Shown here in pieces: positions 16,325 through 34,599 of a stretch of 64,000 nt of DNA. Within the stretch, counting starts at the first letter, position 1. Every line of letters begins with the position of its first letter. Origin of the DNA: Pseudomonas syringae KCTC 12500 (GTDB taxonomy: Bacteria; Pseudomonadota; Gammaproteobacteria; Pseudomonadales; Pseudomonadaceae); contig NZ_AYTM02000002.1 in assembly GCF_000507185.2 (NCBI RefSeq), positions 5,615,501 to 5,679,500 on the forward strand. The letters are read 5' to 3'. Below the pieces are notes generated by a model that was given only the letters and a program-made list of their open reading frames with translations, was not told the DNA's origin and ran no database searches. The position numbers were made by a program, and so were the translations under genes.

Positions 16325-16349
16325 CAACAGGTTTCTCTTTTGAACTCAT

Positions 16350-17690
16350 GTGGATAACCAGAACATGCCAGCACCTTTAACTCCCGTGCATACCTCTGCA
16401 GATCTGCCGGCGGAGGCCGATGTGGTTGTGATCGGCGGCGGTATAATTGGCGCGTTTACCGCCTATTACCTTGCCAGGCGCGGCATGAAGGTCGCACTGG
16501 TCGAAAAGGGCCGCATAGGCGCCGAGCAGTCAAGTCGTAACTGGGGCTGGTGCCGCCAGCAGAATCGCGATGCGCGTGAATTGCCGATGGCCACCAAAAG
16601 CCTGGACCTGTGGGAGCAATTCGCGGCGCAATCCGGTGAACAGACCGGTTTTACGCGGTGCGGCTTACTCTACCTGAGCAACAACGAGCAGGAACTGGAA
16701 GGGTGGGCGCGCTGGGGCGAGTTTGCGCGGACCGTCAACGTGCAGACCCAGATGCTCAATGCCGAGCAGGCCGCCGAACGGGGCAGGGCAACAGGCAAGC
16801 CTTGGAAAGGCGGGGTGTTTGCGCCTACCGATGGCATTGCCGACCCGTCCCGCGCAGCCCCCGCAGTCGCGCGCGCGATCATGGCACTGGGCAGTAGCGT
16901 GCATCAGAATTGCGCCGTGCGGGGCGTCGAGACCGAAGGCGGTCGATTGTCGGCAGTGGTCACCGAAAAAGGCACCATCCGCACTCGGCTCGCAGTGCTT
17001 GCCGCAGGCGCCTGGGCATCTTCGTTCTGCCGCCAGTATGGTATTCGCTTCCCACAAGCGACGATTCGTCAAACCGTGCTTTCAGTCTCCGCCCCGAGCC
17101 AGGAAATTCCCAGCGCGCTGCATACCACCGGCGCGTCCATGACCCGCCGCGTTGATGGCAGTTACACGCTAGCGATCAGTGGCCGGGGGCGAGTCGATAT
17201 CACGCCGCAGTTGCTGAGGTTCTCTACCCAATTCCTGCCAATGTTTCAGCGCCGCTGGCGCAACCTTGCCCCTGGGGGGCTGGAAGGCTGGCAAGCAGGC
17301 CACGAAAGCTTGAAGCGCTGGCGCCTGGACCAGCCCACGCCGATGGAGAGAATGCGCATTCTCGACCCAAGCGCTGACGCCTCCGCAGTTGCGCTGACTT
17401 ACAAGCGCGCGGTGGAACTGGTGCCGGCACTGCAGGGTACGTCGATCAAGGCGTCCTGGGCCGGTTACGTGGACAGTACGCCGGACGGCGTTCCCGGTAT
17501 CGGCGAAATGGCCAGCCTGCCTGGGCTGGTGATCGCGGCCGGGTTCAGCGGGCATGGCTTTGGCATTGGACCGGGCGCGGGTCATCTTATTGCCGATATT
17601 GTCAGCGGTGTGAGCCCCATTGTTGATCCGCGTCCTTATCACCCGGACCGTTTTCAAACGTCTGCCTGGGGCAAGGTGGCGGACTTTTGA
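16350..17690 (+). CDS. FAD-dependent oxidoreductase, DadA/glycine oxidase family
   Basis: 446 aa if the GTG at 16350 is used, or 441 aa from the ATG at 16365; neither has a strong Shine-Dalgarno. The dinucleotide-binding VVVIGGGIIGAFTAYYLARRG lies near the N-terminus. SSRNWGWCRQQNRDARE follows the FAD motif, and SGHGFGIGPGAGHLIADI at the C-terminus completes the DAO fold. It probably oxidises an amine or amino acid produced in the kinase/aminotransferase cluster. The nearest characterised relatives by pattern are D-amino acid dehydrogenases and related opine or amine oxidases. Confidence 0.85.
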   Translation: MDNQNMPAPLTPVHTSADLPAEADVVVIGGGIIGAFTAYYLARRGMKVALVEKGRIGAEQSSRNWGWCRQQNRDARELPMATKSLDLWEQFAAQSGEQTGFTRCGLLYLSNNEQELEGWARWGEFARTVNVQTQMLNAEQAAERGRATGKPWKGGVFAPTDGIADPSRAAPAVARAIMALGSSVHQNCAVRGVETEGGRLSAVVTEKGTIRTRLAVLAAGAWASSFCRQYGIRFPQATIRQTVLSVSAPSQEIPSALHTTGASMTRRVDGSYTLAISGRGRVDITPQLLRFSTQFLPMFQRRWRNLAPGGLEGWQAGHESLKRWRLDQPTPMERMRILDPSADASAVALTYKRAVELVPALQGTSIKASWAGYVDSTPDGVPGIGEMASLPGLVIAAGFSGHGFGIGPGAGHLIADIVSGVSPIVDPRPYHPDRFQTSAWGKVADF

Positions 17691-17716
17691 GCTGAAGCTG
17701 GGGCGAGGGGGTGGAT

Positions 17717-18787
17717 TTATTTCACCTTTTCAGTCTCACGCATGAATTGCCCCAGCTCCTTGCTATAAAACTTCGCCATGCTCGTGGTGCCGTGACCACG
17801 GGTGTCGGCACTGGCACGGATAAGTAATAGCCGTGCGTGCTTGAGTTCTTTCATCGACGCCTCCATCAGACCTGTTTCCGGCGGGATGCGCTCATCGTCC
17901 GCCGAATTGATGGCCAGCACCGGCGCCTGGATTTTCTTCAGACCGGGGGTTGCGTTGAAGTCGGCGGAAGATTGCCATTGGTAGATAAAGTCATTGGCGT
18001 CGGCGGTTTGTGCAGCGCTGAGGCGTTCATCCACCAGCTTATCGGCCTGAGCGCGGGTCGGGGCAGCCGCCTGATACGCCAGGGTGCCGCCACTGGTCGC
18101 CACGCTGAACATCGCGTTTGCCAAGCGCAAGGAGGGTGGTTGCGTGCTGTAGTTACCGTTGTTCCAGGCCGGGTCTTGCTTGATCGACTCCACCAGCAAG
18201 CGGCGCATCATCCAGTTGCGGGATGACATTTCGGTGGGTTGGGACGCCATGGGCACCAGTGCGTCCATCATCTGCGGCCAGTTCTGGCCCCACATCCAGG
18301 TTTGCATGCCGCCCATGGAGTTGCCGATGATCAGCCTCAGGTGCTTGATACCCAGGCCTTCGGTGACCAAGCGATACTGGGCTTGAACCATGTCGTCGTA
18401 GTTGTACGTCGGAAACCGGGTGCGCAAGCCATCTGATGGTTTGCTGGACTGGCCCATGCCGATGCCATCGGTGGAAATGATGTAGTACTTGCTGGCGTCC
18501 AGCGGTTGACCAGGGCCAAACAGTTCCCCGCCAAAATCCTTGCTCAGCATATCGCTGCCTGGCCGATAAGTGCCGTGCAGGAAGAGGATGGCGGGATTCT
18601 TGGGATTGCCAAGGGTGATGTAGTGCAGTTTGAGGTTGGCGAGTTTCTCACCGGTATGGAAGGTGAACTGCGGGGCAACCCAGTCGCCCTCGGTCGCGGC
18701 GGGTAAGGGCGCGGCACTGATGGCGGGGCCGAATAAGGCTAGAGAAAACAACAACCCGATCGAGGGACGTGAAATGAATCTATGCAT
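17717..18787 (-). CDS. exported alpha/beta hydrolase, homoserine acetyltransferase-like
   Basis: 356 aa with a signal peptide (hydrophobic core ~10-22, cleavage near AISAAPLPA), so probably periplasmic. The nucleophile elbow is GNSMGGMQTWMWG. The acid is probably the Asp of NSADDERIP and the base the His of TRGHGTTSM. Order and sequence resemble MetX-like acyltransferases, but the export signal makes methionine biosynthesis unlikely; an esterase or hydrolase role is more probable. AGGA lies 6 bases before the ATG. It is a single gene, convergent with the FAD oxidoreductase. Confidence 0.85.
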   Translation of the reverse strand: MHRFISRPSIGLLFSLALFGPAISAAPLPAATEGDWVAPQFTFHTGEKLANLKLHYITLGNPKNPAILFLHGTYRPGSDMLSKDFGGELFGPGQPLDASKYYIISTDGIGMGQSSKPSDGLRTRFPTYNYDDMVQAQYRLVTEGLGIKHLRLIIGNSMGGMQTWMWGQNWPQMMDALVPMASQPTEMSSRNWMMRRLLVESIKQDPAWNNGNYSTQPPSLRLANAMFSVATSGGTLAYQAAAPTRAQADKLVDERLSAAQTADANDFIYQWQSSADFNATPGLKKIQAPVLAINSADDERIPPETGLMEASMKELKHARLLLIRASADTRGHGTTSMAKFYSKELGQFMRETEKVK

Positions 18788-19164
18788 GGTTGTGTCCTAT
18801 TATTTTTGTTTTAGGAGGTCCTGCGCTTCGATGCCTGCAGGAGTGATCACTTGGCTAATCCTCAGGGCGAGACAATCATGGCGCAACGTGGACGGGTGTC
18901 GATACGGGGATCTTCGTTCCCATCCTGTTTTGTATTTTTGTCAGGGCGTAATGGGGATTGGGGGGATAACCCCCTAACGATCAGATAATGTTAAGTTAAT
19001 TTTTATATACCATTATTTAACATCTTGGCGCGATTGTGTCGCTGTTTGTAATGGAGACAGCGGACCATCAAGTCCGACACCGGCTGCGCGCTTTCGGAAA
19101 ACTTCGCCAAGCTATGCAGAAGGTATTATTCACCGCGGCCACTGGCCTCGGCCCAACCGCATGA
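18788..19164. other. intergenic region without gene
   Basis: 377 bases between the hydrolase start and the end of the TetR gene. It contains an AT-rich stretch near 18980-19020 (TTAATTTTTATATACC) that could include the hydrolase promoter. I see no coding frame or RNA. Confidence 0.5.
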
Positions 19165-19776
19165 TCAAGAGGGGCGTGGGACCAGTCCTGATTCCTCATA
19201 GCTCGCTATCAGGTCATCGAATTGGTGAATGTCCGCGCGCGTTCGTGCAATAAGTTGCGCACCGGCAACAGCCGTATAGATCGCCCGGGACCGTCGCTCG
19301 CGGGATTGCGCATCCCCCCAACCAGCGTCTTCCAACACTTGGATCAACCACGCCACGTTTATGTCTGCAAATGCCCTGACTTCAGCCGCAACCTCTTCAG
19401 GCAGATCTTCGTATTCGGCTGCCATGAAGCTGGAAAGGCAAAGTCGGTTAGCATTCTCCAGTGACGTCCTGAAGATTGAAGGAAACAGCTGCAAGCATTT
19501 CCATGGATCAGAATTAGTCGTCCGGATTTGCGCCAGCGCAGTCGATGTGTCTTGCCAGTAGCGGCGGGCAACCGCAGAGCCCAAGGCCGCTTTGCTAGGG
19601 AAGTGGTAATAGATACTCGCATTCTTGATGCCGACTTCATCAGCGATGCTTCTGAAATTGATCCCACTATAGCCATGCAGCTGCGCAGCGGATTTTGCCG
19701 CTGCCAGGATGGCTTCTCGCGCATTTTCGCTCACCTTACAACCTCTCTCTGGTTTCTCACCTGTGGGCATAGGCAC
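19165..19776 (-). CDS. TetR family repressor
   Basis: 203 aa from the ATG at 19776; a GTG at 19734 giving a start at SENAREAIL is an alternative. The N-terminal HTH reads GINFRSIADEVGIKNASIYYHFPSK, typical of TetR. The C-terminal ligand domain is ~130 residues. It is divergent from a glutathione S-transferase gene with an 8+8 palindrome between them, so it very likely represses that gene and itself, and is induced by an electrophile or similar (inference). Confidence 0.92.
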   Translation of the reverse strand: MPMPTGEKPERGCKVSENAREAILAAAKSAAQLHGYSGINFRSIADEVGIKNASIYYHFPSKAALGSAVARRYWQDTSTALAQIRTTNSDPWKCLQLFPSIFRTSLENANRLCLSSFMAAEYEDLPEEVAAEVRAFADINVAWLIQVLEDAGWGDAQSRERRSRAIYTAVAGAQLIARTRADIHQFDDLIASYEESGLVPRPS

Positions 19777-19795
19777 ATCCTACTCCCGCAGGCTC

Positions 19796-19819
19796 TACCT
19801 GCCAATTGACAGGCAGGTA
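19796..19819. promoter_or_regulatory. TetR operator palindrome
   Basis: Perfect inverted repeat TACCTGCC (19796-19803) and GGCAGGTA (19812-19819) with spacer AATTGACA. It ends 7 bases before the GST start, so it would cover the ribosome-binding or promoter region. Confidence 0.65.
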
Positions 19820-19826
19820 ACTGAAT

Positions 19827-20528
19827 ATGACTATCGCATCTCAACAAACTGACGTTTCATCCATCCCACAGATGAAAATCTACGACTGGTTTGACGGTCC
19901 CTATCCGGCGCGGGTACGCATCGCACTTGCCGAAAAAGGGCTGCTCCCCAAGATTGATTTTGTGTCAGTCAATCTTTGGACAGGCGAACATAAAGAGCCT
20001 GAATTTTTGGCGATCAACTACTCCGGGACTCTTCCTGTACTCGAACTCCAGGACGGGACACTGATTGCAGAGTGCACAGCGATTACGCAGTATCTGGATA
20101 CTCTGGATGGCAATCCTTCGCTCACCGGACAAACGCCGTTGGAGAAGGGTCTTATCCACATGATGACCAAGCGCGCCGAGATCGAGTTTCTTGATGCAGT
20201 GAGCGTTTACTTCCACCACGCCACACCTGGTTTGGGGCCGAAGGTCGAGCTTTATCAAAACGCTGAGTGGGGCGCGAAAATGGGCGAGAAGGCCATACGC
20301 GGTATGCGCTATTTCGACAACCTTCTAAAATCCCGGCCGTTCATAGCTGGCGATACATTTTCCATGGCCGATATTGCGGTCTTGGGTGGGATGATCTTCG
20401 CATCACTGGTGAAGCTTGCGGTGCCAGAGGAATGTGTCGTTCTCAAAGCCTGGCACGCGAAAATGCAGGAGCGCCCAAGCGTCCAGACTTGGCGCGCGCT
20501 AGTGGAGCAGGGGGCACCGAAGAGCTAA
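19827..20528 (+). CDS. glutathione S-transferase
   Basis: 233 aa. The N-terminal thioredoxin-fold domain has the YDWFDGPYPARVRIALAEKG start, the cis-proline GTLPVLE and the glutathione-gamma-Glu contact ECTAITQYLD. The C-terminal all-helical domain has the AGDTFSMADI N-cap motif. It probably conjugates or reduces an electrophile in the cytoplasm. It is controlled by the divergent TetR. An internal start at residue 16 (MKIYDW) is possible; the 15-residue lead is unusual. Confidence 0.92.
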   Translation: MTIASQQTDVSSIPQMKIYDWFDGPYPARVRIALAEKGLLPKIDFVSVNLWTGEHKEPEFLAINYSGTLPVLELQDGTLIAECTAITQYLDTLDGNPSLTGQTPLEKGLIHMMTKRAEIEFLDAVSVYFHHATPGLGPKVELYQNAEWGAKMGEKAIRGMRYFDNLLKSRPFIAGDTFSMADIAVLGGMIFASLVKLAVPEECVVLKAWHAKMQERPSVQTWRALVEQGAPKS

Positions 20529-20635
20529 CGAGTCAGGGATAGTGCATCCACCAGAGCGCTAATAGTGGATGTCACTCATTCTATTGGGGCTTTTGGGCCT
20601 GGAGTCTTGAGTGTCGCTCACTGCAAGGAATACAC

Positions 20636-21100
20636 ATGAACGCGTTGCCTTCAACCTCTCTGCCAAAGCACGTCAGCCTGCTGGGTTATGGCGGCCTTTT
20701 ACCGTTTATTTCTCTGGCGCTGCTGATCCCGTTCTCTGGCAACTATCGGCCGCTGTTTGCGATTGCGCTTGTTAACTATGGAGCCGTCATCCTGAGCTTC
20801 GTCGGCGCCTTGCACTGGGGCTTCGCCATGACCGCGCAAGACATGAAAGCCGAGCAGCGCAGCGGCCGGTTCATCTGGAGTGTCATCCCTGCACTTATTG
20901 CCTGGATTGCCACGTTACTGCCAATGCCATTGGGTTGCTTGCTGATGGTCATCGGCTTTGTTGTCCACCTCTGGCAGGACAGGCAGCTCTCGCAGGTTAT
21001 AAGCTTGCCCGCCTGGTACCTTCCGATGCGATTACGGCTTACCGCCGTGGCTAGCGTCTGCCTGCTGCTTGCCGCGATAGTTGAGGTGCTTCATTTATGA
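20636..21100 (+). CDS. DUF3429 inner-membrane protein
   Basis: 154 aa with about five hydrophobic segments. The HVSLLGYGGLLPFISLA start and FVGALHWGFAM motif match the DUF3429 family, whose function is unknown. It is a single gene and marks the last ordinary chromosomal gene before the island that runs to dif. Confidence 0.85.
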   Translation: MNALPSTSLPKHVSLLGYGGLLPFISLALLIPFSGNYRPLFAIALVNYGAVILSFVGALHWGFAMTAQDMKAEQRSGRFIWSVIPALIAWIATLLPMPLGCLLMVIGFVVHLWQDRQLSQVISLPAWYLPMRLRLTAVASVCLLLAAIVEVLHL

Positions 21101-21221
21101 AGCCTCGTGTGCCCGGTTCTTTGCCTGTGGATGGCAGCCGCTTATCGCGGTTGATGCGTTTTGGCATTTTGGACTCGTCGTCTTAGGCGGCTTTGATATC
21201 TGGATGACTACAATCAGAAGC

Positions 21222-21794
21222 TCATTGTGCTTTTCCAGGCCGAGGAAGGATGAGCCTTGCTCTGAGGGCAAACTGGTAGTCACCTAGGGTGTCGTTCAGC
21301 GCTTTCAGGTTAGTTTTCTGGAAACCCTCTTTGCCCCGGCGATACTGATTTTCGAGAAGGTATCGATCCGGCACCTGGGTGTGTTAGCCGAAGACGGTTC
21401 GCGTGTACTCCCCAGCCGCATATTCGGTATCGATTCGGGAGCTGTCGATCAGCAGATGTTTGACCGGTCGCCTGTAGCGGACATGTGGTGCACCCGAGAA
21501 TGTTGAGAACTGCACTGTGTAATACTCGAAAGGGAAGCTCTCCTTGTTAGTGCGCAACAGCTCAAGAATCGTAGGCCCAAAATCTTCTATCAAGGGCACG
21601 ATAGCCACCCGCAGGCCGTCGCCAGCCGCCTGCGTCAGGTTCTGATATACATACAAGCCTTGATCTTCACCCAGGACACTGCTCCTGCCCGTAGCGTTGT
21701 CCCCGATCAACACGTTAGTGCCTGGATCAAAGTGCAGCGTCAGTGCAGGAAAGCTTTTGAAGTTTTGCAACTCTAACTGCGTGATGGCTGGCAT
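21222..21794 (-). pseudogene. broken AAA/OLD-like ATPase
   Basis: The 5' part (21384-21794) begins MPAITQLELQNFKSFPALTL and has a P-loop-like IGDNATGRSS, where the usual Gly-Lys-Ser has become Gly-Arg-Ser. It then jumps directly into distal sequence (YEYYT-type beta strands), so the ATPase core is missing (internal deletion). A TAA at 21384-21386 interrupts the frame, which continues as HTQVPDRYLLENQYRRGKEG to a stop at 21222. This is the N-terminus and C-terminal end of an SMC-like/OLD-type ATPase, a class common in defence islands. It is downstream of, and co-oriented with, the pPIWI-RE operon. Confidence 0.65.
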
Positions 21795-21864
21795 TCGCGC
21801 TCTTTGTGAAATGCTGGGTGTTATGACTTATACGTGTCTAGTAATGAACGGTTACCAGGCGGCT

Positions 21865-24219
21865 TTAACCGGCTGATCGATTAGCCTCTGTCTTTCGCCG
21901 CGCTTCCATAACTGGATGATCTGCAGCTACTTGCTTGCCAAGGTGCATCGGGCCAGGCAGGCGCAGATGACCATCCCACAGTGGTGGGTTGCGACAGAGC
22001 AACGCCACTTGCTCGGCAACCGCAGCTGCACCGTCAAAGGCTCCAGGCTGGATGATGGCAATTTCCGTGACGCCGAGCTGTTGCCAAGGATCCCGAAGAT
22101 CTCTCTCCCGTACGTCGTAACGGGTGTTGTCACGCTGCGAACGAACGCTGCCAAACTGCTTGGATGGAGACACAAAGTAAAACACTGAGGGACTCTCACA
22201 GGACTGGAACGCGCCGACCTTCGTGCCAATGTAGTGGGCTGCTTGCGGCGACAAGGTGTGGCTACCACTGATCTGTGCTACCTGATGGTCCGCACGGATT
22301 CGCACTACTGCTGCATCGTCCGGTACGGTTGGTAGCCCCTCACCAGGACTGTCTTTTAGGCCTGCATAAAAAGTTCTCAGGTCTGCATCGAGGCAGACGA
22401 TCAACGAGTCAGCTGGATTGATTTTGCAATCAAGAAGGGCTTGGGTGATCAGTGTTTTCAATTGATCAGGCGTCAGCAGCGTGTCCGTGGCATGGATCGC
22501 AGTCAGTCCCGCGCTGTAGCTGAACCATTTGCCTGCAGACTCTGCGCCAGACTCAAACCAGAAGATTTCAGGGGTGTGGCCACCGAGCGTGGTGCGCGTG
22601 ATCACGGGTAGAAATTTCGCCCAGCCTTTGTCCTGGAGTCGATCTAGCAGGACTGAAACTACCGTAGTGTTGGCCGGCATCGACTTGACCTTGGGTGTAG
22701 GGGCAGGGTGCTGGCCGCTCAACCGAATCGCTTCGATGATCGAGTTGATCGCTTTGAAATCACGGTCATCTTCCTTAGGCTTGCGCTTCTTCACCTGTGC
22801 ATCGGGGTCAACGTGCATAATGAATTGGGTAGCGATGCCATGCTTCGCCAGCACCCGGCGGATGACGTGCTTGGGATCGAGTCCAGTTTCGCGTGATGCT
22901 GCTGATGCACTGGTCTCAACAATCATGACCTTGGCGCCGTTTTGAGCGAGCACTCTGCTCGCCGGAACCACGTGATTCAATAACCATTCGTTGAGGCTGT
23001 TCAGGTCATGCTGCCCCTCCAGCATACGCTGCGCATCTGGCACATCCAGACGTGACAGCGTCACACGTGGTGGGGCGACTTTCTTGAAGAACTTGCTGTC
23101 CCTGGCCAAGTTTGAACTCGCCCCGTGAAGCCTTAGCATCACGTCTGCGTGAGCTGCCAAGACCATCACGTTCAAGTCGATCACCTCGCCCGTAGCATTG
23201 GTCTTTTCTTCGCGCAGAACAGCGACAGATTTTCTGACCAGAAGCGGCTTTGTCCTTGGTAGACAAGCAAGCAGATGGAATCCTGCCTGGTCAAGAAACA
23301 GGGGGCCAGTGCCTGACGCGATCAAGGGGTTCGAGGGTGGAATGGCGTAGATAGGGCGCACGTCGCTGTCGACAGGGATATCGCCCTCGATTATTGGAGG
23401 AAACGACGGAACCCCCATAAAGGTCAGCAACTTTTCAATGGGATGTTCGTAAAATGTTTCCCAGCCCCCATGCCCGTCGGGCTTGCTCCGGATTTTTGCT
23501 TTGACAATCAGGTCGCCAGTTTTGACCCAGGCATGCTTCTTTTGACCCTTGAGATTCGGCATCACCTGAGTCAGCTTTACCCGCAGCTGTAGATAGGGCT
23601 TGGATTGGCCGTAGATCAGCACCAATGCAGGCTCGATGGCGTGAAGCGCACTGGCGTAGCGTACGTCGCTTTCCGAAACGACTGGGTCGTCCCAGGCGAG
23701 CACGCACCCGTCGGCAGCCTGATAAAGCTTAAGAGGTTTCGCTGCTTGCATTGGCTTCGCAATCAGCGCTTGACCTACCAACCAAGGAATGACTGTGTAC
23801 GCAAGGGACGATACGTCACCGGACGCGACCAAGCGGGCAGTGTCCATAGGTACCAGGTCGGTGACGACCAGTTTGCCTTCGAATTCGAGCAGTTCTTGTT
23901 TGTAAAACTGCATCACGTCCATAGCCCAAAGGCGGAGCGCTTCGTTGATGGTGTCAACGGGCAGGGGCTTCAGCAAAAGGATCGCCGAGACGCCTCCTTC
24001 TTTTTGCGGAAACAGGTTCACCTTGACCGGCCCTCCAGAGAGGGTGGCGAGCATTTCCTCAAGCCCTATGGTCGGTAGGCCAGGATGGGGTTTCCTTACC
24101 AGTCCCTGAAGAGCTTGCCAGGCATCAAGGTAATGCGGGCCTACCACGACGCGGTAGCTTTGTCCCAAAGCTGCTGGATCGAACTCAAAGAGGCTGGTGC
24201 GTAATTCAAGAACCTTCAT
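21865..24219 (-). CDS. prokaryotic PIWI-RE family protein (pPIWI-RE)
   Basis: 784 aa from the ATG at 24219, which overlaps the helicase stop as ATGA and follows AAGGA at good spacing. A longer frame to 24300 lies inside the helicase gene and is unlikely. The N-terminal ~420 residues fit the family's X module. A MID-like segment (VMIVETSASAASRETG, ~431-446) and an RNase H/PIWI-like domain (~515-765) follow. LIVCLDADLRTFYAGL (607-621) gives D611 and R615, and LGVTEIAII gives E719; these are candidates for the conserved Asp and for the Arg and Glu that name the family. It is the third gene of a nuclease-helicase-PIWI operon, proposed in the literature to act against invading DNA via nucleic-acid hybrids. 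The assignment is by motif and gene order. Confidence 0.8.
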   Translation of the reverse strand: MKVLELRTSLFEFDPAALGQSYRVVVGPHYLDAWQALQGLVRKPHPGLPTIGLEEMLATLSGGPVKVNLFPQKEGGVSAILLLKPLPVDTINEALRLWAMDVMQFYKQELLEFEGKLVVTDLVPMDTARLVASGDVSSLAYTVIPWLVGQALIAKPMQAAKPLKLYQAADGCVLAWDDPVVSESDVRYASALHAIEPALVLIYGQSKPYLQLRVKLTQVMPNLKGQKKHAWVKTGDLIVKAKIRSKPDGHGGWETFYEHPIEKLLTFMGVPSFPPIIEGDIPVDSDVRPIYAIPPSNPLIASGTGPLFLDQAGFHLLACLPRTKPLLVRKSVAVLREEKTNATGEVIDLNVMVLAAHADVMLRLHGASSNLARDSKFFKKVAPPRVTLSRLDVPDAQRMLEGQHDLNSLNEWLLNHVVPASRVLAQNGAKVMIVETSASAASRETGLDPKHVIRRVLAKHGIATQFIMHVDPDAQVKKRKPKEDDRDFKAINSIIEAIRLSGQHPAPTPKVKSMPANTTVVSVLLDRLQDKGWAKFLPVITRTTLGGHTPEIFWFESGAESAGKWFSYSAGLTAIHATDTLLTPDQLKTLITQALLDCKINPADSLIVCLDADLRTFYAGLKDSPGEGLPTVPDDAAVVRIRADHQVAQISGSHTLSPQAAHYIGTKVGAFQSCESPSVFYFVSPSKQFGSVRSQRDNTRYDVRERDLRDPWQQLGVTEIAIIQPGAFDGAAAVAEQVALLCRNPPLWDGHLRLPGPMHLGKQVAADHPVMEARRKTEANRSAG

Positions 24220-27200
24220 CGTGCGTCCTTCACTGATCCATTGATGTATTTCAAAAGTGCCGATGCAACGCCGGCATGATGACGGGCAAACTGGTTCCAA
24301 TCGCCGTCTTGCTTGAGCTGTTCAACGCTCTCGTTAAGCATCAGAGGCCACGGCTTCAAACCTTCGAGAAATGCCGCATCGGCGAAGTAGCAAGTCACAG
24401 GTGTGCCGCCCCGGCGTCCACGACCGATCAGTTGGGTGAGGCTCACAAGGATGTTCATGATCGTGTAGTGGCGGATGTTGGCCGGCTGCTGGCTGAACGC
24501 GGGGCGGGCGGTACGAATCTTTTGCAGCAGCGCATTGGAATGCTTCCGTTCCTGCATCATCAATACGCCCGGACTGCTGGATGGCGCTACAAACTTGCTG
24601 GTTTCGTAACAGATGTGCGCCAGATTGTTGTTGGGGCTATCTGACGATGGAAGAGGGCGTACACAGATCACCACAGCACCAATGGCTGAAAATCCGTCGC
24701 TGTTCACAATGTTGTGTCCACGCGCCATTGGGCCCAAGGCGCTGACCAGCAGAGTTTTGTCCTTGTGTCGGCCGTTGGTGAACTCAGCGAGATCATCGTA
24801 TGCAAGCATCTGCTGTGCATCTAGCGAGGACGGCTTGTAGTCGCTTTGCCGTCCACGAACCCAGCCTACCAGCTGACCAGGACCGCCCTGCATCCTGGCC
24901 AGGGTCATGGCCAGAACTTCAGCGTCTGCATCGCTATTGGTGACCAGCAGCAGGCGGGCACGCGTCTGCGTGACGGGGTCGTTGGCCAAGCTTGCAAGTC
25001 GGCTGCGTAGCCACGGCCAAATCTCTTTGGCGAATTTTGATACCAGGAATTTTCGCTGCGAGAACTGAGCGCCAGAGATAGCGGTTGTCTGAGGCACATT
25101 TTCGAAAGTCACCTGGCCAGCTACATCGGGAACGTCGATGAAATCCTTAGCACGAAGATCGTAAGCGCTAGCGCCGGGGAAGTAGGCAGTCGCCGAGAAG
25201 CCGATAAACAATCGCTTTACACCGGCATAGCCCAAGGCGCTGACATCTGGCAGCGAAAGCAGTGTGCTGTGCGGATCCCCACGCATTGCGACAACGTTCA
25301 GAGTTGAGTCGTTGTCTCCGGTGTCTTTACGTTTGAAGCCAAATACGGCTCGCTGCAAGGGGCCATTCGGAGTCGGGCTCAGCGGCTCCGGCCCTGCGAT
25401 ACTCCGTTTGACCTCGTAGGCATAAGGTATTTCGGCGTTCACGAAGCTGGGTAGCTCGACCTGAAGGTTGCGCAGGTGCGTTTCGATCGCTTCTAACGTG
25501 CCTCGCAAGATGAGTGACGCCTTGAGGCGGATTTGATCGTGCTCCTTGAGACGCGCAGGAAGCAAGTCGCTGTCGGACAACTCTTTGACGAGATGGCCCA
25601 GATTGATTGCCAAGGCCTCAAGCTTGTACTGGCCCCCATTTGATTGCCAGTGAGCAAGGTGGTGACTCAGCTTTTCCAGATAGCCCGGTATGCGGTTCGT
25701 GCTGTTGAACAAGTGCTCAAGCGTCTCACGATCAATACCAAGCTTTTCGGTAATGAACGTGTCGTCTGCGTCCGACCAAGTGGTTTCTTTCTTTGGCCAC
25801 TCGAAATATTCCTCTTGCTGGAGGTTCATTAGCTGGCTGACACTCAGCGTGCAGTAGGTAAGCGCCCAGTTCACGCGGTACATGCTGCTTCGATCAATCT
25901 CAGGAATGCTGGATCGACCGGCCACTGTATTGAATAGACGGAGCAGCGGGCTGTTGTCACCTTGATTGCCCAGCTTCAATTCGATGACGCTGCTGTCGAT
26001 CGCAGACTTCAGTAGACCGTCGATTTCGTCGACAAGAAACACCGGTGCTGTTCTTAGCAGCAGCTCTATGAAGCTGCGTGGGCCTGGACACCGGTCTGAG
26101 TCGGACAATGGAATGCGGGTTGTTCCGGACAACAGGGCGTGATGGTTAATCACCACGACGTCCGCTTCCAGAGCTTGCGACAGCATCGTTGTTCGTCCGC
26201 ACTTGAACAGGAAAGGGCAGTGATTCAGCCGCTTTGATTGTTCTGCACGACCTTCTTCCTGTGTCGATACCCGAACGTTAAAGCACGGTTCTTTTCCAGG
26301 TTCAACTTGCAGCGTATCCGAGGCATAGGCATCGAGTAAGCAGGCATAGTCGTAGGCCGGTGCAGAATGACCCTGCTGAAATTGAAGCTTTCCGCGCTCG
26401 TATACGCGTGTTGCTGAGTGCAGGGGGGCAACCGTGATATCAGGCGCTGTCACCGCAGCGGATTGCTTGAGAATCCGAACCGTGTTCTCAAGCTCAACCA
26501 ACGTTGGCACCGCGATCACCACCCGGTGTCCTCTGCGAGCAGCATCGATCGACATCATGACCATAGCCACACTTTTACCGGTGCCAGTCGGCGCGTTCAC
26601 ACGATAAAAATGACCTGCGTCAGCTGTGCGTAGCGGATCCGAACCCCAAATGTTGGCCAACGAGCTTCGATGATTCGTGTGCAATCCGGTTGCACCATCG
26701 AGTGACTCCGCGAGCTCGTTCAGAGCGTCAAGTTCCCACTTCGTCTCAGGGGCTGCATGGGAGGTTGGGACAGTAACGTACTGGTGGGCGCCACTGAGCA
26801 CCCCTCGCTCGCTCTGTGGGACGACGAACACCCTGACCTGATCACCTGTGATGTGCTTGAGAACGACATCCCCTGAGTCTGGAATCTGTGCATGAACCGA
26901 TGGGGGGCGCCCATATCTCAACGCATCTAGGTGCTCCCTGATGAGCTGATCGACGTTCAGGTGGGGTGAAACGCGATAGCAATCCTGCTCGTGGAGCTCA
27001 CTGCTGAGCTTGCCAGAGTCGACTAACTCAAAGGGGCTACGTTCGCCCTTGATAATTTCCTCTGCGGTCATCACGAAGCGTTTGGGCTGCGCCACGGAGG
27101 ATGGGCGTAGGCGCAAGCCTTCAGCGATAAGTAGCTGGTCAGGCTCGGATAGCACGTACCAAGTGCTCCAGCCTCGTGTGCGACCCGCGCAGAGCGCTGC

Positions 27201-27287
27201 TGCGTCCGCCACCATGGGTTCGTTGCCGACGTAACGCGCGGCTAAGGCGAGGAACAGTATGACGCTGGTATCAGAAAGGGGGAGCAT
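24216..27287 (-). CDS. DinG/XPD-like superfamily 2 helicase of pPIWI-RE system
   Basis: 1023 aa. An N-terminal ~200-residue domain (pPIWI_RE_Z-like position) precedes the helicase core. Walker A APTGTGKS is at 232-239. Four cysteines (C316, C335, C357, C363) in the place of the DinG/XPD Fe-S cluster surround NHCPFLFKCG, then VVVINHHALL, a DEAH-box variant DEID (420-423) and motif VI QLIGRGRR (952-959). It is therefore predicted to be an ATP-dependent 5'-3' DNA helicase with an iron-sulphur cluster, able to unwind DNA or R-loops (family knowledge). Its start lies 17 bases inside the upstream nuclease gene, and its stop overlaps the PIWI gene. Confidence 0.85.
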   Translation of the reverse strand: MLPLSDTSVILFLALAARYVGNEPMVADAAALCAGRTRGWSTWYVLSEPDQLLIAEGLRLRPSSVAQPKRFVMTAEEIIKGERSPFELVDSGKLSSELHEQDCYRVSPHLNVDQLIREHLDALRYGRPPSVHAQIPDSGDVVLKHITGDQVRVFVVPQSERGVLSGAHQYVTVPTSHAAPETKWELDALNELAESLDGATGLHTNHRSSLANIWGSDPLRTADAGHFYRVNAPTGTGKSVAMVMMSIDAARRGHRVVIAVPTLVELENTVRILKQSAAVTAPDITVAPLHSATRVYERGKLQFQQGHSAPAYDYACLLDAYASDTLQVEPGKEPCFNVRVSTQEEGRAEQSKRLNHCPFLFKCGRTTMLSQALEADVVVINHHALLSGTTRIPLSDSDRCPGPRSFIELLLRTAPVFLVDEIDGLLKSAIDSSVIELKLGNQGDNSPLLRLFNTVAGRSSIPEIDRSSMYRVNWALTYCTLSVSQLMNLQQEEYFEWPKKETTWSDADDTFITEKLGIDRETLEHLFNSTNRIPGYLEKLSHHLAHWQSNGGQYKLEALAINLGHLVKELSDSDLLPARLKEHDQIRLKASLILRGTLEAIETHLRNLQVELPSFVNAEIPYAYEVKRSIAGPEPLSPTPNGPLQRAVFGFKRKDTGDNDSTLNVVAMRGDPHSTLLSLPDVSALGYAGVKRLFIGFSATAYFPGASAYDLRAKDFIDVPDVAGQVTFENVPQTTAISGAQFSQRKFLVSKFAKEIWPWLRSRLASLANDPVTQTRARLLLVTNSDADAEVLAMTLARMQGGPGQLVGWVRGRQSDYKPSSLDAQQMLAYDDLAEFTNGRHKDKTLLVSALGPMARGHNIVNSDGFSAIGAVVICVRPLPSSDSPNNNLAHICYETSKFVAPSSSPGVLMMQERKHSNALLQKIRTARPAFSQQPANIRHYTIMNILVSLTQLIGRGRRGGTPVTCYFADAAFLEGLKPWPLMLNESVEQLKQDGDWNQFARHHAGVASALLKYINGSVKDAR

Positions 27288-28308
27288 GTTTCAGGGCCTC
27301 CTTCACACACTGGCTTTGGGTAAATACACTCACCCCAGACTTGCAGCGCTGGCGTAGAAACGGAATGCTCTCCCGCTGATAGTCAGGAATCACGATCCAA
27401 CGTGGTTTGCTGGAGGGGATCGATTCGATGTGTTTGGCCAACTCGTAAGGGGACACCCAAACCTTGGCATCGATGTCCTGCTCAATAAGGCCTAACTGGA
27501 TACGGAGGTCTGTTCGATCCACATCCGGCCAGAGACTCACATCAAACCCTTTTCCCGCCAGCGTACTCGCCAGGGCGATTTCGATAAGTCCTGGCTGCAG
27601 GGTGAATTTCCACAGCGCAGGTTTGAGCATCAGACGGCCATCGACCGGCTGGCCATGCAGCACGCTGTTGTTCACACGGTTGAGAAGGCTTGTACCTTCA
27701 CGAACAAAAAGGCTTTTTTTGTCTTGGCACCAGGCTGAGTCGCAGCTGACTTCGTGCCGCTGGGCATTCATTGGCCACCGGCATTCCGGGCACAAGTAGA
27801 CTAAGCCGTTGTGATACAGATGGAGGGGGATGGGGTCGTAGAACTCGTTCAGGGAGAGGTTGAGCGGGATGAAGACATCTTGGGCTTCAGACGGAAAGAT
27901 CACGCCGTGCTCAATGAGGAAAAGCCTGAAGTTGCGGTAGTGAATTTCTCCCTCTGCCCGCAGCCGACACGCCTGCTTGACCCTATTTACGCTTGCCTGG
28001 ACTTCTTCCCAGAGCTGACTGACGTCGAGCTCAAGCAGCATTTCGTTGCAGGTCTGCGTCGCGATGTTGGAGTAAAGCAGTGGGCCCGAATAATCTAGCC
28101 TCAGTGCATCCGGCAACCACTTTTCCAAGGGTAGGCTAAGCTGATTTTCAAGCTTGATCGCTGACATGGGGGGAGCGCTAGGCTCCAGGCGCCAGAGCAA
28201 TGCGGATGCTCTTTGAAGCACGGTAAACGCTTCGGCCCTGTCGGTGCCACACAGCGAGGCGCCTTGGGCTAGAAGGCGGAGCAGGTGCTCGGGGGCGTGC
28301 TTGTCCAT
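27271..28308 (-). CDS. PD-(D/E)XK-like nuclease with zinc ribbon, pPIWI-RE system
   Basis: 345 aa. A helical N-terminal region (pPIWI_RE_Y-like) is followed by a C4 zinc ribbon (C173, C176, C189, C194 in YLCPECRWP...CDSAWC). The C-terminal domain has a restriction-endonuclease pattern: E243 in LIEIALAS, Asp at 264/267 in DRTDL, and D280-A-K282 in DIDAKVW, the last being the DxK signature. This is the REase component described for three-gene pPIWI-RE modules. It is the first gene of the operon. The nuclease residues look intact, so an active enzyme is expected. Confidence 0.75.
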   Translation of the reverse strand: MDKHAPEHLLRLLAQGASLCGTDRAEAFTVLQRASALLWRLEPSAPPMSAIKLENQLSLPLEKWLPDALRLDYSGPLLYSNIATQTCNEMLLELDVSQLWEEVQASVNRVKQACRLRAEGEIHYRNFRLFLIEHGVIFPSEAQDVFIPLNLSLNEFYDPIPLHLYHNGLVYLCPECRWPMNAQRHEVSCDSAWCQDKKSLFVREGTSLLNRVNNSVLHGQPVDGRLMLKPALWKFTLQPGLIEIALASTLAGKGFDVSLWPDVDRTDLRIQLGLIEQDIDAKVWVSPYELAKHIESIPSSKPRWIVIPDYQRESIPFLRQRCKSGVSVFTQSQCVKEALKHAPPF

Positions 28309-28755
28309 CTGCGGTACCTCATCTTCCCTGAGCGACTGATCAGCGTTGCAGGTTGCTGAAGACCAATGGCGGCCAAGACAACCTACAACGTGTAAATGTT
28401 GGTGGCTAAGCTATCAATTTGCTGCTAAATCGCGCAACGCTTGGTAACGCGATTTGTCTTTCGAATTAATTCAGGACATGAACGCACCGGCCATATCCGC
28501 CTCAGTTGAGCATACCAGGCTTGAGCCAACGTCAAAAAATGCCAAACAGCTCATACATTTCCAAGCCGATAGCGCTTCCGATCGCGTACAAGACGTTCTG
28601 CCAGAGCACTCTATTGAGAGTCGTTCGGGATTGTAGCTTCGCATGTGGTAGCCGAGGTGTTGGGAGTATTGTTCGCTGAGGAAGCTCAAGTTGATAGGGT
28701 TGAAGCTCTGGGTTGTTGATGGCGGCTACAGGCGGACAACATAAGGAAGCACGTA
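28309..28755. other. non-coding stretch between pPIWI-RE operon and dif
   Basis: 447 bases upstream of the nuclease gene, presumably carrying the operon promoter on the minus strand. Short open frames here have no coding character. No operator could be recognised. Confidence 0.5.
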
Positions 28756-28783
28756 ATTTAACATAATATACATTATGCGTACC
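28756..28783 (-). other. dif: chromosomal dif site (XerCD)
   Basis: On the minus strand the XerC arm GGTACGCATAA (28773-28783), centre TGTATA (28767-28772) and XerD arm TTATGTTAAAT (28756-28766) form a complete 28-bp dif. Compared from memory with the E. coli site, only one base of the XerC arm differs. It marks the replication terminus where XerCD resolves chromosome dimers. It is also the left junction of the adjoining prophage, so the XerC arm may be phage-derived. Confidence 0.92.
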
Positions 28784-28834
28784 TCTGGATTCAATGCCGG
28801 CCTCGATGTACAGTCCTTTTAATCACCAAAAAGC

Positions 28835-28868
28835 ATAACTCAACTAAATTACCGTTTAGTCGAGTTAT
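28835..28868. terminator. palindrome at the end of the phage operon
   Basis: Arms of 14 bases at 28835-28848 (ATAACTCAACTAAA) and 28855-28868 with one mismatch and a 6-base loop. On the minus strand the stem is followed by GCTTTTTGG, so it can serve as terminator after the zot region. A perfect version of the same palindrome occurs at 38157-38190. Confidence 0.6.
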
Positions 28869-29008
28869 AACAGCCAGCAGCGGAAACGCCACCAGAAATG
28901 AGGACGGGTTTCCTGCAGGTGCCACTTCCAGTCGATAACATGAGAGTTACAGAGGTCTAGGCGCTCGACGACAGGATTGAATCTGTACATAAGCTCAAGA
29001 GCTTTCAT
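28865..29008 (-). CDS. small aromatic-rich phage protein (47 aa)
   Basis: A 47-codon frame starting at the ATG that overlaps the zot stop (ATGA at 29005-29008) and ending in the terminator stem. The product begins MKALELMYRFNPVVERLD and ends with a Trp/Arg-rich tail (WKWHLQETRPHFWWRFRCWLL). Translational coupling to zot supports a real gene. Function unknown; the amphipathic aromatic tail suggests membrane contact. Confidence 0.6.
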   Translation of the reverse strand: MKALELMYRFNPVVERLDLCNSHVIDWKWHLQETRPHFWWRFRCWLL

Positions 29009-30270
29009 TTGATGGTCCTCTGAGTGCGACTGGTATCAGGAATGATGTTGAACCGTGAAGGCTTTGTAGATTGAGCGCTCTGGTCCACAGCTGCGAGCCC
29101 TCGCTGCTGACCGTCGCGCATATCATTAAGGCGGTTTGAGGAAAGACCGGCCGGTGTGGCATACGCTGGCTGCTGTTTGGTGTCATCAAAATAACCGTTC
29201 TGAACAACTGACATGCAGAAATCAAAAGAAGTAGTCATGCGTGTAGCCTGCTGTGAATAGCACTGGCAGACAGTGTCCTCTCCATTAAATGAACCCGTGC
29301 TCAGACCTCTAGACTTCGCAGTCAGCAACATACGAACATCGGTAGAAGCCATACACGTTGGACGTGGAAAATCCCGAGCCTTGTTGGTTTCGTCATATCT
29401 AGGTGCAGACGACTCAACGTCAGCAATTCTAGGCTTGTACTGCTGTACATATTCCTGAGCTGGCTGAACTGATCGACCTGGAGTGTTGACGGCAGAAGAC
29501 TGTAAAGTCGAATGCTTGGGCTCAGATGGTTTTAATTCAGAATGAGAGACAACAGGAGCCTCACTTTCAGGGGCTTTACTCTTCATGATGTACCAGAAAC
29601 CACCACCAAGCAAAGCGATAGGTATGAGAACAGCAGCGATAAGCAAAGGGATAACCTTGTAATAACTAGGCGTGACCTTTTTATGAGTATGAACGGTTGA
29701 TGACTTATAAAGGCCAAAGTAATGACTATCGAACTCAATTTTCGACTCCTGAGCCATCTTGAAATTAGTGCGATTCTCAGGCCTGTCAATACACATTTCG
29801 TACTCATGACGGAATATGCCTTTAGTCCTGCCATATGGGCGGATAAAGTTAATATGCCTTCCTACAAGCTTCCTGACAGGCGAGCAGATAAGTGATGGAT
29901 GCTGGGTAATTATATGAACATCCCAACCATGGTGACGATGCTTCTCAAAACGGGTGATCTTTTCAACACGACCACGAACGTCAGTACCGAAAGTGCCTTG
30001 AGCCTCATCTATTACGATAACGCAGCCATCTGGCAAGTTGTACCATAGCTCAGGAGTGTCCCATTCAACCCAGTTAGACTTAAGCTTATCTACTTTAAGT
30101 TCAGGAATGCCATGATAATAAATGACACGCGGGGGTAAATTTGGATCGTCAGGATCCTTGTGAAGACGAAGCAAGGGATTATCTGGATCGGCAGCATGCT
30201 CCAAATCAATCTCTTTAATTGTGTTGAGAGTCTTGCCAGCTCCAGGCAAACCAGTACGAAGAATTAACAT
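29005..30270 (-). CDS. zot: Zot-like phage assembly ATPase (pI homologue)
   Basis: 421 aa. Walker A GLPGAGKT is at residues 7-14 and Walker B CVIVIDEAQ at 83-91. A cytoplasmic N-terminal domain is followed by one transmembrane segment (about 206-228) and a periplasmic, low-complexity C-terminal part. This is the layout of inovirus pI/Zot proteins, which power virion extrusion through the inner membrane. No phage secretin gene (pIV) is present, so export would have to use a host secretin. Confidence 0.92.
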   Translation of the reverse strand: MLILRTGLPGAGKTLNTIKEIDLEHAADPDNPLLRLHKDPDDPNLPPRVIYYHGIPELKVDKLKSNWVEWDTPELWYNLPDGCVIVIDEAQGTFGTDVRGRVEKITRFEKHRHHGWDVHIITQHPSLICSPVRKLVGRHINFIRPYGRTKGIFRHEYEMCIDRPENRTNFKMAQESKIEFDSHYFGLYKSSTVHTHKKVTPSYYKVIPLLIAAVLIPIALLGGGFWYIMKSKAPESEAPVVSHSELKPSEPKHSTLQSSAVNTPGRSVQPAQEYVQQYKPRIADVESSAPRYDETNKARDFPRPTCMASTDVRMLLTAKSRGLSTGSFNGEDTVCQCYSQQATRMTTSFDFCMSVVQNGYFDDTKQQPAYATPAGLSSNRLNDMRDGQQRGLAAVDQSAQSTKPSRFNIIPDTSRTQRTIK

Positions 30271-30275
30271 GCGCC

Positions 30276-30587
30276 CTACTCCTTAGGTGTCCATTTCATA
30301 GTTGTTTTGCTGCCAGCCTTATTCATGCCAGCAAGCAAGGCGCGGGCAATATATGCAGAAAATAAGATATTCAAACAAACATCAACCTTGAGCATTCCAA
30401 GGACTGAAATCCAGTCAGCAGGCAAACTGCCAAGCTGGGAGAAAGCATAAACCTTAGCCTTATCGAGAGCAGCTTCAATGCCGATATAACTTATTGCAGC
30501 AAAACCAAGTCCGCGTAAAAGCTTCCAGCCTAGGGGAACAATAGACAAACCAAGCATACGAATAAACAAGCCAATAATTGCAGGCAT
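30276..30587 (-). CDS. DUF2523 minor coat protein (pVI-like)
   Basis: 103 aa with three hydrophobic segments (about 3-20, 27-42 and 62-90). It lies between the attachment protein and Zot, as pVI-type proteins do, 3 bases after the preceding stop. It fits DUF2523, a family found in inoviruses and thought to form part of the virion end that holds the adsorption protein. Confidence 0.8.
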   Translation of the reverse strand: MPAIIGLFIRMLGLSIVPLGWKLLRGLGFAAISYIGIEAALDKAKVYAFSQLGSLPADWISVLGMLKVDVCLNILFSAYIARALLAGMNKAGSKTTMKWTPKE

Positions 30588-30590
30588 TTA

Positions 30591-31961
<1,371 letters not shown>

Positions 31962-31975
31962 GATTTTCTCCAGAC

Positions 31976-32010
31976 AAAAAAAAGCCCGGAGGGAAAGACT
32001 CCCACCGGGC
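31976..32010 (-). terminator. rho-independent terminator after the major coat gene
   Basis: On the minus strand a GC stem GCCCGG-TGGG pairs with CCC-CCGGGC (31984-32010), followed by eight T (31976-31983). Terminators here let inoviruses make much more coat protein than assembly proteins. Confidence 0.9.
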
Positions 32011-32022
32011 AAACAGGGTTGA

Positions 32023-32256
32023 TTAGGTCCCTGCGCGCATTGCTTTCTTGCCAGCACCGATCAGAGCAGTCAGACCGAACATGGCGGCGGTAACAGCGGC
32101 GGCAGCAACAACAGCAGCGGCGACATAGCCCAGGGCTTCGGCAGTGTCGATGGTTTCACCAGCAGCGAAAGAAGGCGAGGCAGTTGCCATCGCGATCGAA
32201 GCGGCTACAAGTTGAGCACGGCCAGATTTGCAGAGGAGGAGCAGTTTGTTTTTCAT
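32023..32256 (-). CDS. major coat protein precursor (pVIII-like)
   Basis: 77 aa. A leader with lysines, an alanine-rich core and SPSFA cleavage site would release a mature protein of about 46 residues (starting AGETIDTAEA). That mature form has an acidic N-terminus, one hydrophobic helix (YVAAAVVAAAAVTAAMFGL) and a basic C-terminus (GKKAMR). This is the standard filamentous phage coat layout. A strong terminator follows. Confidence 0.93.
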   Translation of the reverse strand: MKNKLLLLCKSGRAQLVAASIAMATASPSFAAGETIDTAEALGYVAAAVVAAAAVTAAMFGLTALIGAGKKAMRAGT

Positions 32257-32267
32257 ATATCACCAAA

Positions 32268-32477
32268 TCAAAATGAATTGCGGACGGTTTTGCAGACCCA
32301 GACGAAAACAAAGAGGCCAAAAAGTGCACCAGTTATTTCCATCCGTTGTTCTGCGGTAATAGCAGGACTGAGAGAGTCCCGCATTTCTTGGACTGTGAAA
32401 GTTTGAAGTTGGCCAGTACAAACGGGAGTACCGTCAGACTGAACTTGCCACATTCCGTCACAGCCCAGAAAATTCAT
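32268..32477 (-). CDS. phage minor coat-like protein, 69 aa
   Basis: 69 aa, starting 1 base after the ssDNA-binding protein stop. A small N-terminal part with two cysteines (FLGCDG and TPVCTG) is followed by a polar helix and a C-terminal transmembrane segment (TGALFGLFVFVWVCKTV). It resembles small proteins in the same place in Pf-type phages. A structural role at a virion tip or an assembly role is likely; it has not been recognised beyond that. Confidence 0.7.
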   Translation of the reverse strand: MNFLGCDGMWQVQSDGTPVCTGQLQTFTVQEMRDSLSPAITAEQRMEITGALFGLFVFVWVCKTVRNSF

Positions 32478-32478
32478 G

Positions 32479-32790
32479 TTAGCCAGCCTTCTGAGCGTTC
32501 ATTGCAGCAGAAAGAGGAGGAATATTCTTACGGCGACCCTGACGAGGGTCAATATCACTAAGAACAGGACGACCGTCTTTCATGGTAAATGAGTAGTCAC
32601 ACTCATAAGTGCCAGGCTGAGGGACATTAGAATCACCCTCAGCATAGAAAGAACCTTCTTGAGGATAAGGGTAACCGGGAAGATGAACGAATGCCTTGTA
32701 AAGAGCATATGGCTTGCCGGATTTAGCAGCGTTACCACGACGAGTGATATCGCCGGTAACCTCTACAAGCATAACGAGTGGAGTTGACAT
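32479..32790 (-). CDS. phage single-stranded DNA-binding protein (pV-like)
   Basis: 103 aa. It has a small beta-rich protein pattern: GNAAKSGKPYALYKAFVHL, then QEGSFYAEGD and GTYECDYSF with MKDGRPVLSDID. These correspond in order to the Pf1-type helix-destabilising protein that coats newly made phage DNA before packaging. The last ~20 residues are a basic/proline tail. AAGGGG lies upstream of the ATG. Confidence 0.85.
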   Translation of the reverse strand: MSTPLVMLVEVTGDITRRGNAAKSGKPYALYKAFVHLPGYPYPQEGSFYAEGDSNVPQPGTYECDYSFTMKDGRPVLSDIDPRQGRRKNIPPLSAAMNAQKAG

Positions 32791-32801
32791 GTTGTTGCCC
32801 C

Positions 32802-33056: not shown

Positions 33057-33057
33057 G

Positions 33058-34486: not shown

Positions 34487-34495
34487 GCGGAGCGT

Positions 34496-34590: not shown

Positions 34591-34599
34591 GGGAATTTG

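Follow-up and report, generated by a model that had tools for sequence, protein, structure and literature searches.

An intact pPIWI-RE module beside dif in Pseudomonas syringae, with hints of a split-gene counterpart to DdmDE and ApsAB

Introduction

The pPIWI-RE proteins are a little-studied branch of the prokaryotic Argonautes, and the three-gene modules that encode them were predicted by Burroughs, Iyer, and Aravind in 2013 to restrict invading DNA under guidance (PMC3702460, in the parts covered here). One member has been characterized biochemically: PsPIWI-RE of P. stutzeri DSM4166 cuts single-stranded DNA (ssDNA) with RNA guides and RNA with DNA guides, and cleavage was abolished by the substitutions D525A and D610A but not by R639A or E718A (PMC10991935, in the parts covered here). 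Its deletion caused sensitivity to ciprofloxacin, with survival of the wild type ~15 times that of the deletion strain, which formed long filaments; the protein was assayed alone, the covered parts of that article contain no plasmid, phage, or defense assay, and the authors speculated on a role in chromosome completion. In two further systems, DdmDE and ApsAB, plasmids are targeted by a helicase-nuclease that an Argonaute-like protein recruits (PMC12409362 and PMC11096173, in the parts covered). Here, we analyze a 64,000-nucleotide stretch (hereafter, the window) from the 6.15-Mb, two-contig genome of Pseudomonas syringae KCTC 12500 (contig NZ_AYTM02000002.1, positions 5,615,501 to 5,679,500), which carries a pPIWI-RE module beside the chromosome dimer resolution site dif. 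The locus is intact, its PIWI protein is close to the tested enzyme, and, together with its relatives, it offers matched natural states: intact, deleted, and with or without the Gabija system.

Results and Discussion

The three genes of the module overlap and lie on the minus strand, running from 28308 to 21865 according to the open reading frames and profile matches. The first (27271 to 28308) encodes PprRE, a 345-aa restriction endonuclease (REase) with a helical Y region, a C4 zinc ribbon, and a PD-(D/E)XK nuclease; the second (24216 to 27287) encodes PprDinG, a 1023-aa DinG-type superfamily 2 (SF2) helicase; and the third (21865 to 24219) encodes the pPIWI-RE protein, of 784 aa when read from the ATG at 24219 within an open frame of 21865 to 24300. 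These coordinates confirm overlaps of 17 and 4 bases, the latter between the helicase stop and the PIWI start, as given in a preliminary description made from the letters of the sequence. PADLOC names all three proteins with E-values far beyond chance (PprRE, 4.8e-25; PprDinG, 1.7e-252; PprPIWI, 8.3e-130), the last profile spanning residues 2 to 773 of 784. The Pfam cut-offs are passed by RNaseH_pPIWI_RE (PF13032, E 1.1e-19), MID_pPIWI_RE (PF18157, 40.6 bits against 26.6), and pPIWI_RE_REase (PF18154, E 3.6e-18). The assignment to a three-gene pPIWI-RE module made in the preliminary description thus holds, although of the domain profiles it named, pPIWI_RE_X (PF13111, E 1.4e-06, 28.2 bits against 30.5) and pPIWI_RE_Y, the Y domain of the REase (19.4 bits against 26.7), fall below their cut-offs. 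The predicted model of the PIWI protein matches full-length Argonautes, in line with the RNase H-like fold anticipated for it.

The layout agrees with that of the 2013 modules in the order of REase, DinG helicase, and PIWI, the overlapping genes, the zinc ribbon and REase fold, the Fe-S type cysteines, and the R and E residues, and differs by a decayed gajA behind the PIWI gene and the position beside dif (PMC3702460, in the parts covered). The pPIWI-RE module is, therefore, an already known kind of predicted DNA-targeting defense, and its identity is not in itself novel. Comparison with P. cichorii gave ratios of nonsynonymous to synonymous substitution (dN/dS) of 0.072 for the REase, 0.062 for the helicase, and 0.066 for the PIWI protein, from which all three genes are judged to be under strong purifying selection. 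With three open frames and every motif in place, the earlier impression that all parts are intact is upheld.

Alignment with relatives (rows are counted with the window) shows where the conservation lies. In the REase, the ribbon cysteines C173, C176, C189, and C194 and the nuclease residues E243, D267, and D280-A-K282 are invariant in 13 of 13 rows. The helicase has GTGKS at 235 to 239, DEID at 420 to 423, SAT at 698 to 700, and QLIGRGRR at 952 to 959, and K238 of Walker A, D420/E421/D423, the SAT residues, Q952/G955/R956/R959, and the four Fe-S type cysteines (C316, C335, C357, and C363) are invariant in 15 of 15. The C4 ribbon, the E...D...DxK residues, Walker A, the four cysteines, and QLIGRGRR had been correctly read beforehand. 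The PIWI alignment has 14 rows, L064 being excluded for a stop within the chosen range; R640, E719, and the MID residues K450, H451, R454, and Q465 are present in all 14, D526 is aspartate in 12 and glutamate in 2, and D611 is aspartate in 11, with N, N, and S in L058, L054, and L062. By comparison, D526 and D611 are the two catalytic aspartates. The residues D611, R615, and E719 had been proposed from the sequence alone; D611 and E719 are indeed there, but R615 is an arginine in only 10 of 14 rows and the family arginine is R640, and D526 had been overlooked. The REase and helicase motifs are unbroken in every row, including the three whose PIWI protein has lost D611. Because they stay invariant where this aspartate is lost, slicing by the PIWI protein seems dispensable, with the helicase and nuclease together as the apparent constant effector, the same division of roles as in DdmDE and ApsAB.

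The window PIWI protein appears to be an ortholog of PsPIWI-RE, judged via a Stutzerimonas ortholog (L050) rather than the DSM4166 sequence itself. L050 has 783 aa, shares 79% identity with the window protein, and carries D525, D610, R639, and E718 at the positions published for PsPIWI-RE; R639 of PsPIWI-RE is R640 here, and the window protein keeps both catalytic aspartates. With the biochemistry and deletion phenotype of PsPIWI-RE already in print (PMC10991935, in the parts covered), the statement that such modules have seen little experimental work needs amending.

The predicted REase model (predicted local distance difference test score, 89.5) points in a further direction. The first six Foldseek rows are DdmD, and in a second look, DdmD accounts for 13 of the 50 rows listed; these rows align 172 to 193 residues (from model positions 97-102 to 333-345), and the remaining listed rows 81 to 139. 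The likeness falls on the DdmD region from ~911 to 1190, with middling scores. At the sequence level, no match between the module and DdmDE or ApsAB was found, so the likeness to DdmD lacks support of that kind; no DdmE title appears among the 50 rows listed for the PIWI model, which weighs neither way. The motifs reported for ApsA, GFGKS, DELH, SAT, QAVGRVER, and D1420/D1433-V-K1435 (PMC11096173, in the parts covered), are paralleled by GTGKS, DEID, SAT, and QLIGRGRR in the helicase and D267/D280-A-K282 in the REase. DdmDE of V. cholerae and L. casei and ApsAB of E. coli likewise combine an Argonaute-like protein with an SF2 helicase and a PD-(D/E)XK nuclease. However, the module has three genes rather than two and an Fe-S DinG-type helicase, and its PIWI protein keeps catalytic residues, whereas DdmE is described as inactive. 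In each of the 13 loci with both proteins aligned, helicase and nuclease are encoded by different genes, as opposed to the fused protein of the DdmD/ApsA type, and for this reason the module is not classed as DdmDE. The modeled fold nevertheless hints that it is a possible split-gene counterpart of DdmDE and ApsAB. This appears to be new; we found no paper linking PIWI-RE with DdmDE in the open-licence literature, in the parts covered. The likeness to DdmD predicts anti-plasmid activity, of which we found no published test in that literature.

It is probable that the module, laid out as one operon, acts in guided DNA interference. The MID pocket of the PIWI protein would bind a short guide, of RNA or of DNA, that pairs with invading DNA, the latter being either single-stranded or opened by transcription or replication. 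The PIWI protein would then bring in the DinG-type helicase, which would unwind and travel along the DNA, and the REase, as the constant effector, would cut it, a layout equivalent to ApsAB or DdmDE with helicase and nuclease on separate genes. DinG helicases have 5'-3' polarity. In this scheme, we infer transcription as one unit, formation of a complex, the order of the steps, and the origin of the guide. The likely targets would be plasmids or phages, and the module would accordingly be a defense system, a reading that draws on the genes present and their residues, on predicted folds and purifying selection, on defense genes near the module in relatives, and on patchy spread and a natural deletion. 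Guided nuclease activity has been shown for the ortholog, PsPIWI-RE (PMC10991935, in the parts covered). As to guides, no Rfam family matches the window at gathering thresholds, and the genome has no Cas1 match, in agreement with the initial report of no CRISPR nearby. Among the 10 loci aligned, similarity over the 220 bases before the operon start is confined to the window and L056, with L059 sharing part of it, and a guide RNA gene was rejected as a candidate on these results.

The distribution of pPIWI-RE is patchy. It was found in 13 of 398 genomes of the genus (by PF13032; 12 over the cut-off) and in 10 of 298 of the family, and a class-wide search with one profile returned 1 of 369, the window only. 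The PIWI protein has no match in PLSDB or INPHARED, and relatives of the helicase below 60% identity occur in 18 plasmid records, 13 of them from Streptomyces. In IMG/VR, 28 candidate stretches included 2 relatives, of which one matches the window identically and the other is a sister contig with a deletion. Both are chromosome called as virus, and carriage of the PIWI gene by plasmids or phages was rejected on the searches of these three databases. The sister contig (L178, IMGVR_UViG_2617270755), one draft contig of another strain, is 98.9% identical to the window from 28800 to 27547 and then jumps to 22094 at 100%. The 5.45 kb in between were deleted cleanly, at a joint (near 6000) where both sides share GGG, and with them went the helicase and the greater part of both the REase nuclease domain and the PIWI gene. 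Incomplete copies or matches occur elsewhere: the PIWI gene is only partly matched in P. sp. PD9R and A. vinelandii CA, and in G525, it contains stops. As a separate observation, in the Azotobacter vinelandii locus (L048), only the C-terminal part of the PIWI protein matches.

Behind the PIWI gene lies a decayed gajA (21384 to 21794, minus strand), a 136-aa frame that lacks 156 bp inside and after which homology ends. By blastn, window positions 21256 to 28475 are homologous to the P. cichorii locus (L056) at ~86% identity, the alignment splitting into 21256 to 21671 and 21672 to 28475, with the 156 bp of L056 lying between, inside gajA. The P. cichorii pair is intact (GajA, 528 aa, PADLOC E 2e-104; GajB, 343 aa, 3.4e-47). 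In the window, the remainder of gajA and the whole of gajB are gone, no gajB standing beside the remnant, so that the intact ATPase-TOPRIM GajA and UvrD-like GajB that define Gabija are missing. The loci of six relatives (L053, L055, L056/L133, L057/L140, L141, and L147) have an intact pair behind the PIWI gene, after a gap of 55 to 67 bp in the four measured (L053, L055, L056/L133, and L057/L140). Of the 398 genus genomes, 23 have a GajA match (E up to 1e-60). Dropping three below 50% identity and adding the window remnant to the 19 that reach 60% makes a set of 20, of which 4 lie in pPIWI-RE genomes. Co-occurrence is enriched (4 of 13 pPIWI-RE genomes against 16 of 385 others; Fisher P = 0.0025, or 0.016 without the window), yet in a GajA tree (n = 19), PIWI-linked and unlinked copies interleave, with at least 3 changes between states. 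A single fixed system of pPIWI-RE and Gabija was rejected on that ground, and Gabija is better described as a repeated neighbor. We found no open-licence literature pairing PIWI-RE with Gabija. In G585, a genome without a pPIWI-RE match, GajA (L164) is very close to the PIWI-linked ones, which suggests that Gabija moves on its own.

Other neighbors within 5 kb downstream match PADLOC defense models, namely, JetD and JetC behind the PIWI gene (L047), PDC-S37/Hhe (L045), PDC-S06 ~2.8 kb away (L059), and part of SngC (L051). These are 5 of 5 proteins picked by eye from 4 loci, not all neighbors, and in this hand-picked sample, pPIWI-RE loci keep the company expected of a defense island. L046, L047, and L048 share downstream DNA, which in L047 encodes the Wadjet proteins JetD and JetC, facing the module.

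The dif site recognized by XerCD lies at 28756 to 28783 (minus strand), with no mismatch to the consensus and no equal in 100 shuffles, and it is the only one in the genome at 3 mismatches or fewer. The peak of the cumulative GC skew falls within ~2 kb of it, and the operon starts 447 bp away, which bears out the placement next to the replication terminus. The intervening 447 bp (28309 to 28755) match no Rfam family and contain no more promoter-like matches than shuffles do, and homology to P. cichorii extends only to 28475. The P. cichorii module likewise neighbors dif (~750 bp), on the same side, and the other flanks are unrelated by blastn.

Each of 22 pPIWI-RE genomes has one dif, and in 12 of these, module and dif share a contig, at distances of ~6, 6, 20, 40, 105, 116, 169, 194, 499, 511, 1319, and 2499 kb. 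As fractions of the half chromosome, the distances in the eight complete genomes are 0.002, 0.006, 0.057, 0.083, 0.20, 0.22, 0.56, and 0.93 (Kolmogorov-Smirnov P = 0.012 against uniform), and modules lie closer to dif than 101 integrases (P = 0.018) and 9 N6_Mtase matches (P = 0.046). This lean towards dif looks new; it is weak, because n is 8, ancestry is shared, and one genome (G056) contributes only a fragment.

The module belongs to an accessory segment (19024 to 28709) that also holds a TetR regulator, a glutathione S-transferase, DUF3429, and the gajA remnant. This segment was not found at the corresponding site of G458, which among the relatives searched is the nearest (93% identity over window positions 38256 to 42344) and is not one of the 13 genus matches to PF13032. 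By blastn, homology to G458 covers 16291 to 19023 and resumes from 28710, and the intervening 6.5 kb of G458 are different DNA, in which a transposase-like frame occurs. Immediately before the segment, at 19015 to 19023 on the plus strand, stands a copy of the XerD-side arm of dif, ATTTAACAT, a candidate left end; in G458, the shared backbone ends exactly at the equivalent copy (26172 to 26180). Outside complete dif sites, ATTTAACAT occurs three times in 3.08 Mb of loci (the G458 site, L153, and L258), and the window holds one more copy, at 52660. This break exactly at an arm copy suggests XerCD exchange of the whole segment, with the module in it, that lies between dif and the copy at 19015. 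The proposal appears to be new, and we put it forward tentatively, as somewhat less probable than its negation. Several facts weigh against it: there is no arm copy in the 13 kb on the module side of the P. cichorii dif (neither in L056 nor in L133), and 18 bp shortly past the arm are again shared with G458, as are the last 46 bp before dif. A terminator or hairpin as the cause of the copy at 19015 is unsupported, the fold there (-6.4 kcal/mol, z -1.04) being no stronger than shuffles. In L153 (Pseudomonas sp. PD9R), the 9-mer occurs at 3519, 6.5 kb from the PIWI fragment at 10001 to 10456, possibly by chance.

The operon is oriented head-on to the replication fork in all of the 21 loci assessed. 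In 12, it runs away from dif, as judged from its strand and the position of dif; for the other 9, in draft genomes, the orientation comes from GC skew and FtsK orienting polar sequences (KOPS). The set leaves out G525 and further named contigs. For the drafts, 1 to 4 stretches per genome, of 15 or 20 kb each and outside the module, were used. Strand-balanced third-position GC skew is negative on the module strand in 9 of 9 drafts and 10 of 10 genomes with known dif, and KOPS in the drafts lie mainly on the opposite strand, save in G140 (9 to 10); the near flanks alone (13 kb) give negative skew in 18 of 20. In a grouping of our own, merging loci by a shared upstream flank leaves 15 sites, and merging by either flank leaves 9, all 9 head-on (P = 0.004 against one half). 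Among controls, 54 of 101 integrases (of 107, with 6 on second contigs excluded) and 4 of 9 N6_Mtase matches are head-on. Gabija without PIWI is head-on in 5 of 8: of the seven tested by skew, 5 are, 1 is not, and 1 (G628) is conflicting, and the eighth (G302, GajA only 31% identical) is not head-on by dif position. This does not differ from 9 of 9 sites (P = 0.08; against 15 of 15, P = 0.03), and the rule, which is striking and looks new, may therefore partly belong to defense genes at large. If it holds, it opens a direct way to study by experiment how such systems stay quiet.

The published phenotype invites a reading other than guided interference, in which the module cuts RNA-DNA or ssDNA intermediates at its own terminus and so aids the finish of replication or the separation of chromosomes, with closeness to dif and head-on orientation being functional. 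The Argonaute of T. thermophilus has a role in finishing replication. The ciprofloxacin sensitivity and filaments of the PsPIWI-RE deletion strain (PMC10991935, in the parts covered) would fit, as would the 447 bp and ~750 bp to dif here and in P. cichorii and the short distances in complete genomes, but those are eight related genomes with a fragment among them, and two Stutzerimonas copies lie 194 kb and 1.3 Mb from dif. A module found in so few genomes, with defense genes nearby and cleanly lost from a sister contig, also speaks against such a role, and we regard a completion factor as unlikely. The open-licence literature yielded nothing joining Argonaute, the terminus, ciprofloxacin or gyrase, and decatenation. 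Quite unlikely, in our estimate, is a sensor of replication stress, in which head-on transcription would keep the operon low and stalled forks, caused by phage takeover or gyrase poisons, would raise it, so that the nuclease is made only when forks stall. The uniform orientation (21 of 21 loci, with negative skew in 19 of 19, against about half of the integrases) speaks for it, but strictly separate sites number 9, Gabija is not distinct from them, and the near flanks are less uniform.

It would also be conceivable that the module is a decaying relic, swept along by the turnover next to dif and without function in this strain. The decayed gajA, the 5.45-kb deletion in the sister contig, the partial PIWI genes of P. 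sp. PD9R and A. vinelandii CA, and the stops in G525 are all compatible with decay, but the three open frames, complete motifs, and dN/dS of 0.06 to 0.07 of the window make it very unlikely. Guided interference remains our preferred reading, and a bolder form of it, which we consider rather doubtful, would have pPIWI-RE modules as three-gene, catalytically armed cousins of DdmDE and ApsAB, oriented head-on, exchanged at dif in this strain, and switched on by fork arrest or by a terminus crowded with RNA-DNA hybrids. If true, it would join the 2013 defense prediction and the 2022 ciprofloxacin phenotype in one mechanism. The resemblance to DdmD, the head-on rule, and the dif-bounded segment are each testable and worth follow-up.

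Neighboring Prophage

On the far side of dif lies a filamentous (inovirus) prophage (28784 to 36810, minus strand; right boundary approximate), identified with Pfam and PHROGs. Its genes encode a Zot-like pI protein (29005 to 30270), a minor coat protein (30276 to 30587), an ssDNA-binding protein (32479 to 32790), and a replication protein (33359 to 34558), and a further protein (30591 to 32057) has a short-period repeat (12- and 18-base steps) and weak MSCRAMM matches. Its right end (36692 to 36808) is dif-like, having a site at 36692 that keeps 16 of the 22 arm bases and the XerC-side arm CATTATGCG at 36794, and these sequences fit the Xer-dependent integration expected of such a prophage. 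In G458, there are three such dif-like arms besides its own dif, and prophage DNA of this kind also lies beyond dif, whereas the sister contig L178 carries a different filamentous prophage (79 to 83% identical) at the same dif. Within the window prophage, positions 33551 to 36110 are a near-identical tandem duplication of the replication-protein region, offset by 1296 to 1297 bp, in which the frame of the second copy is split.

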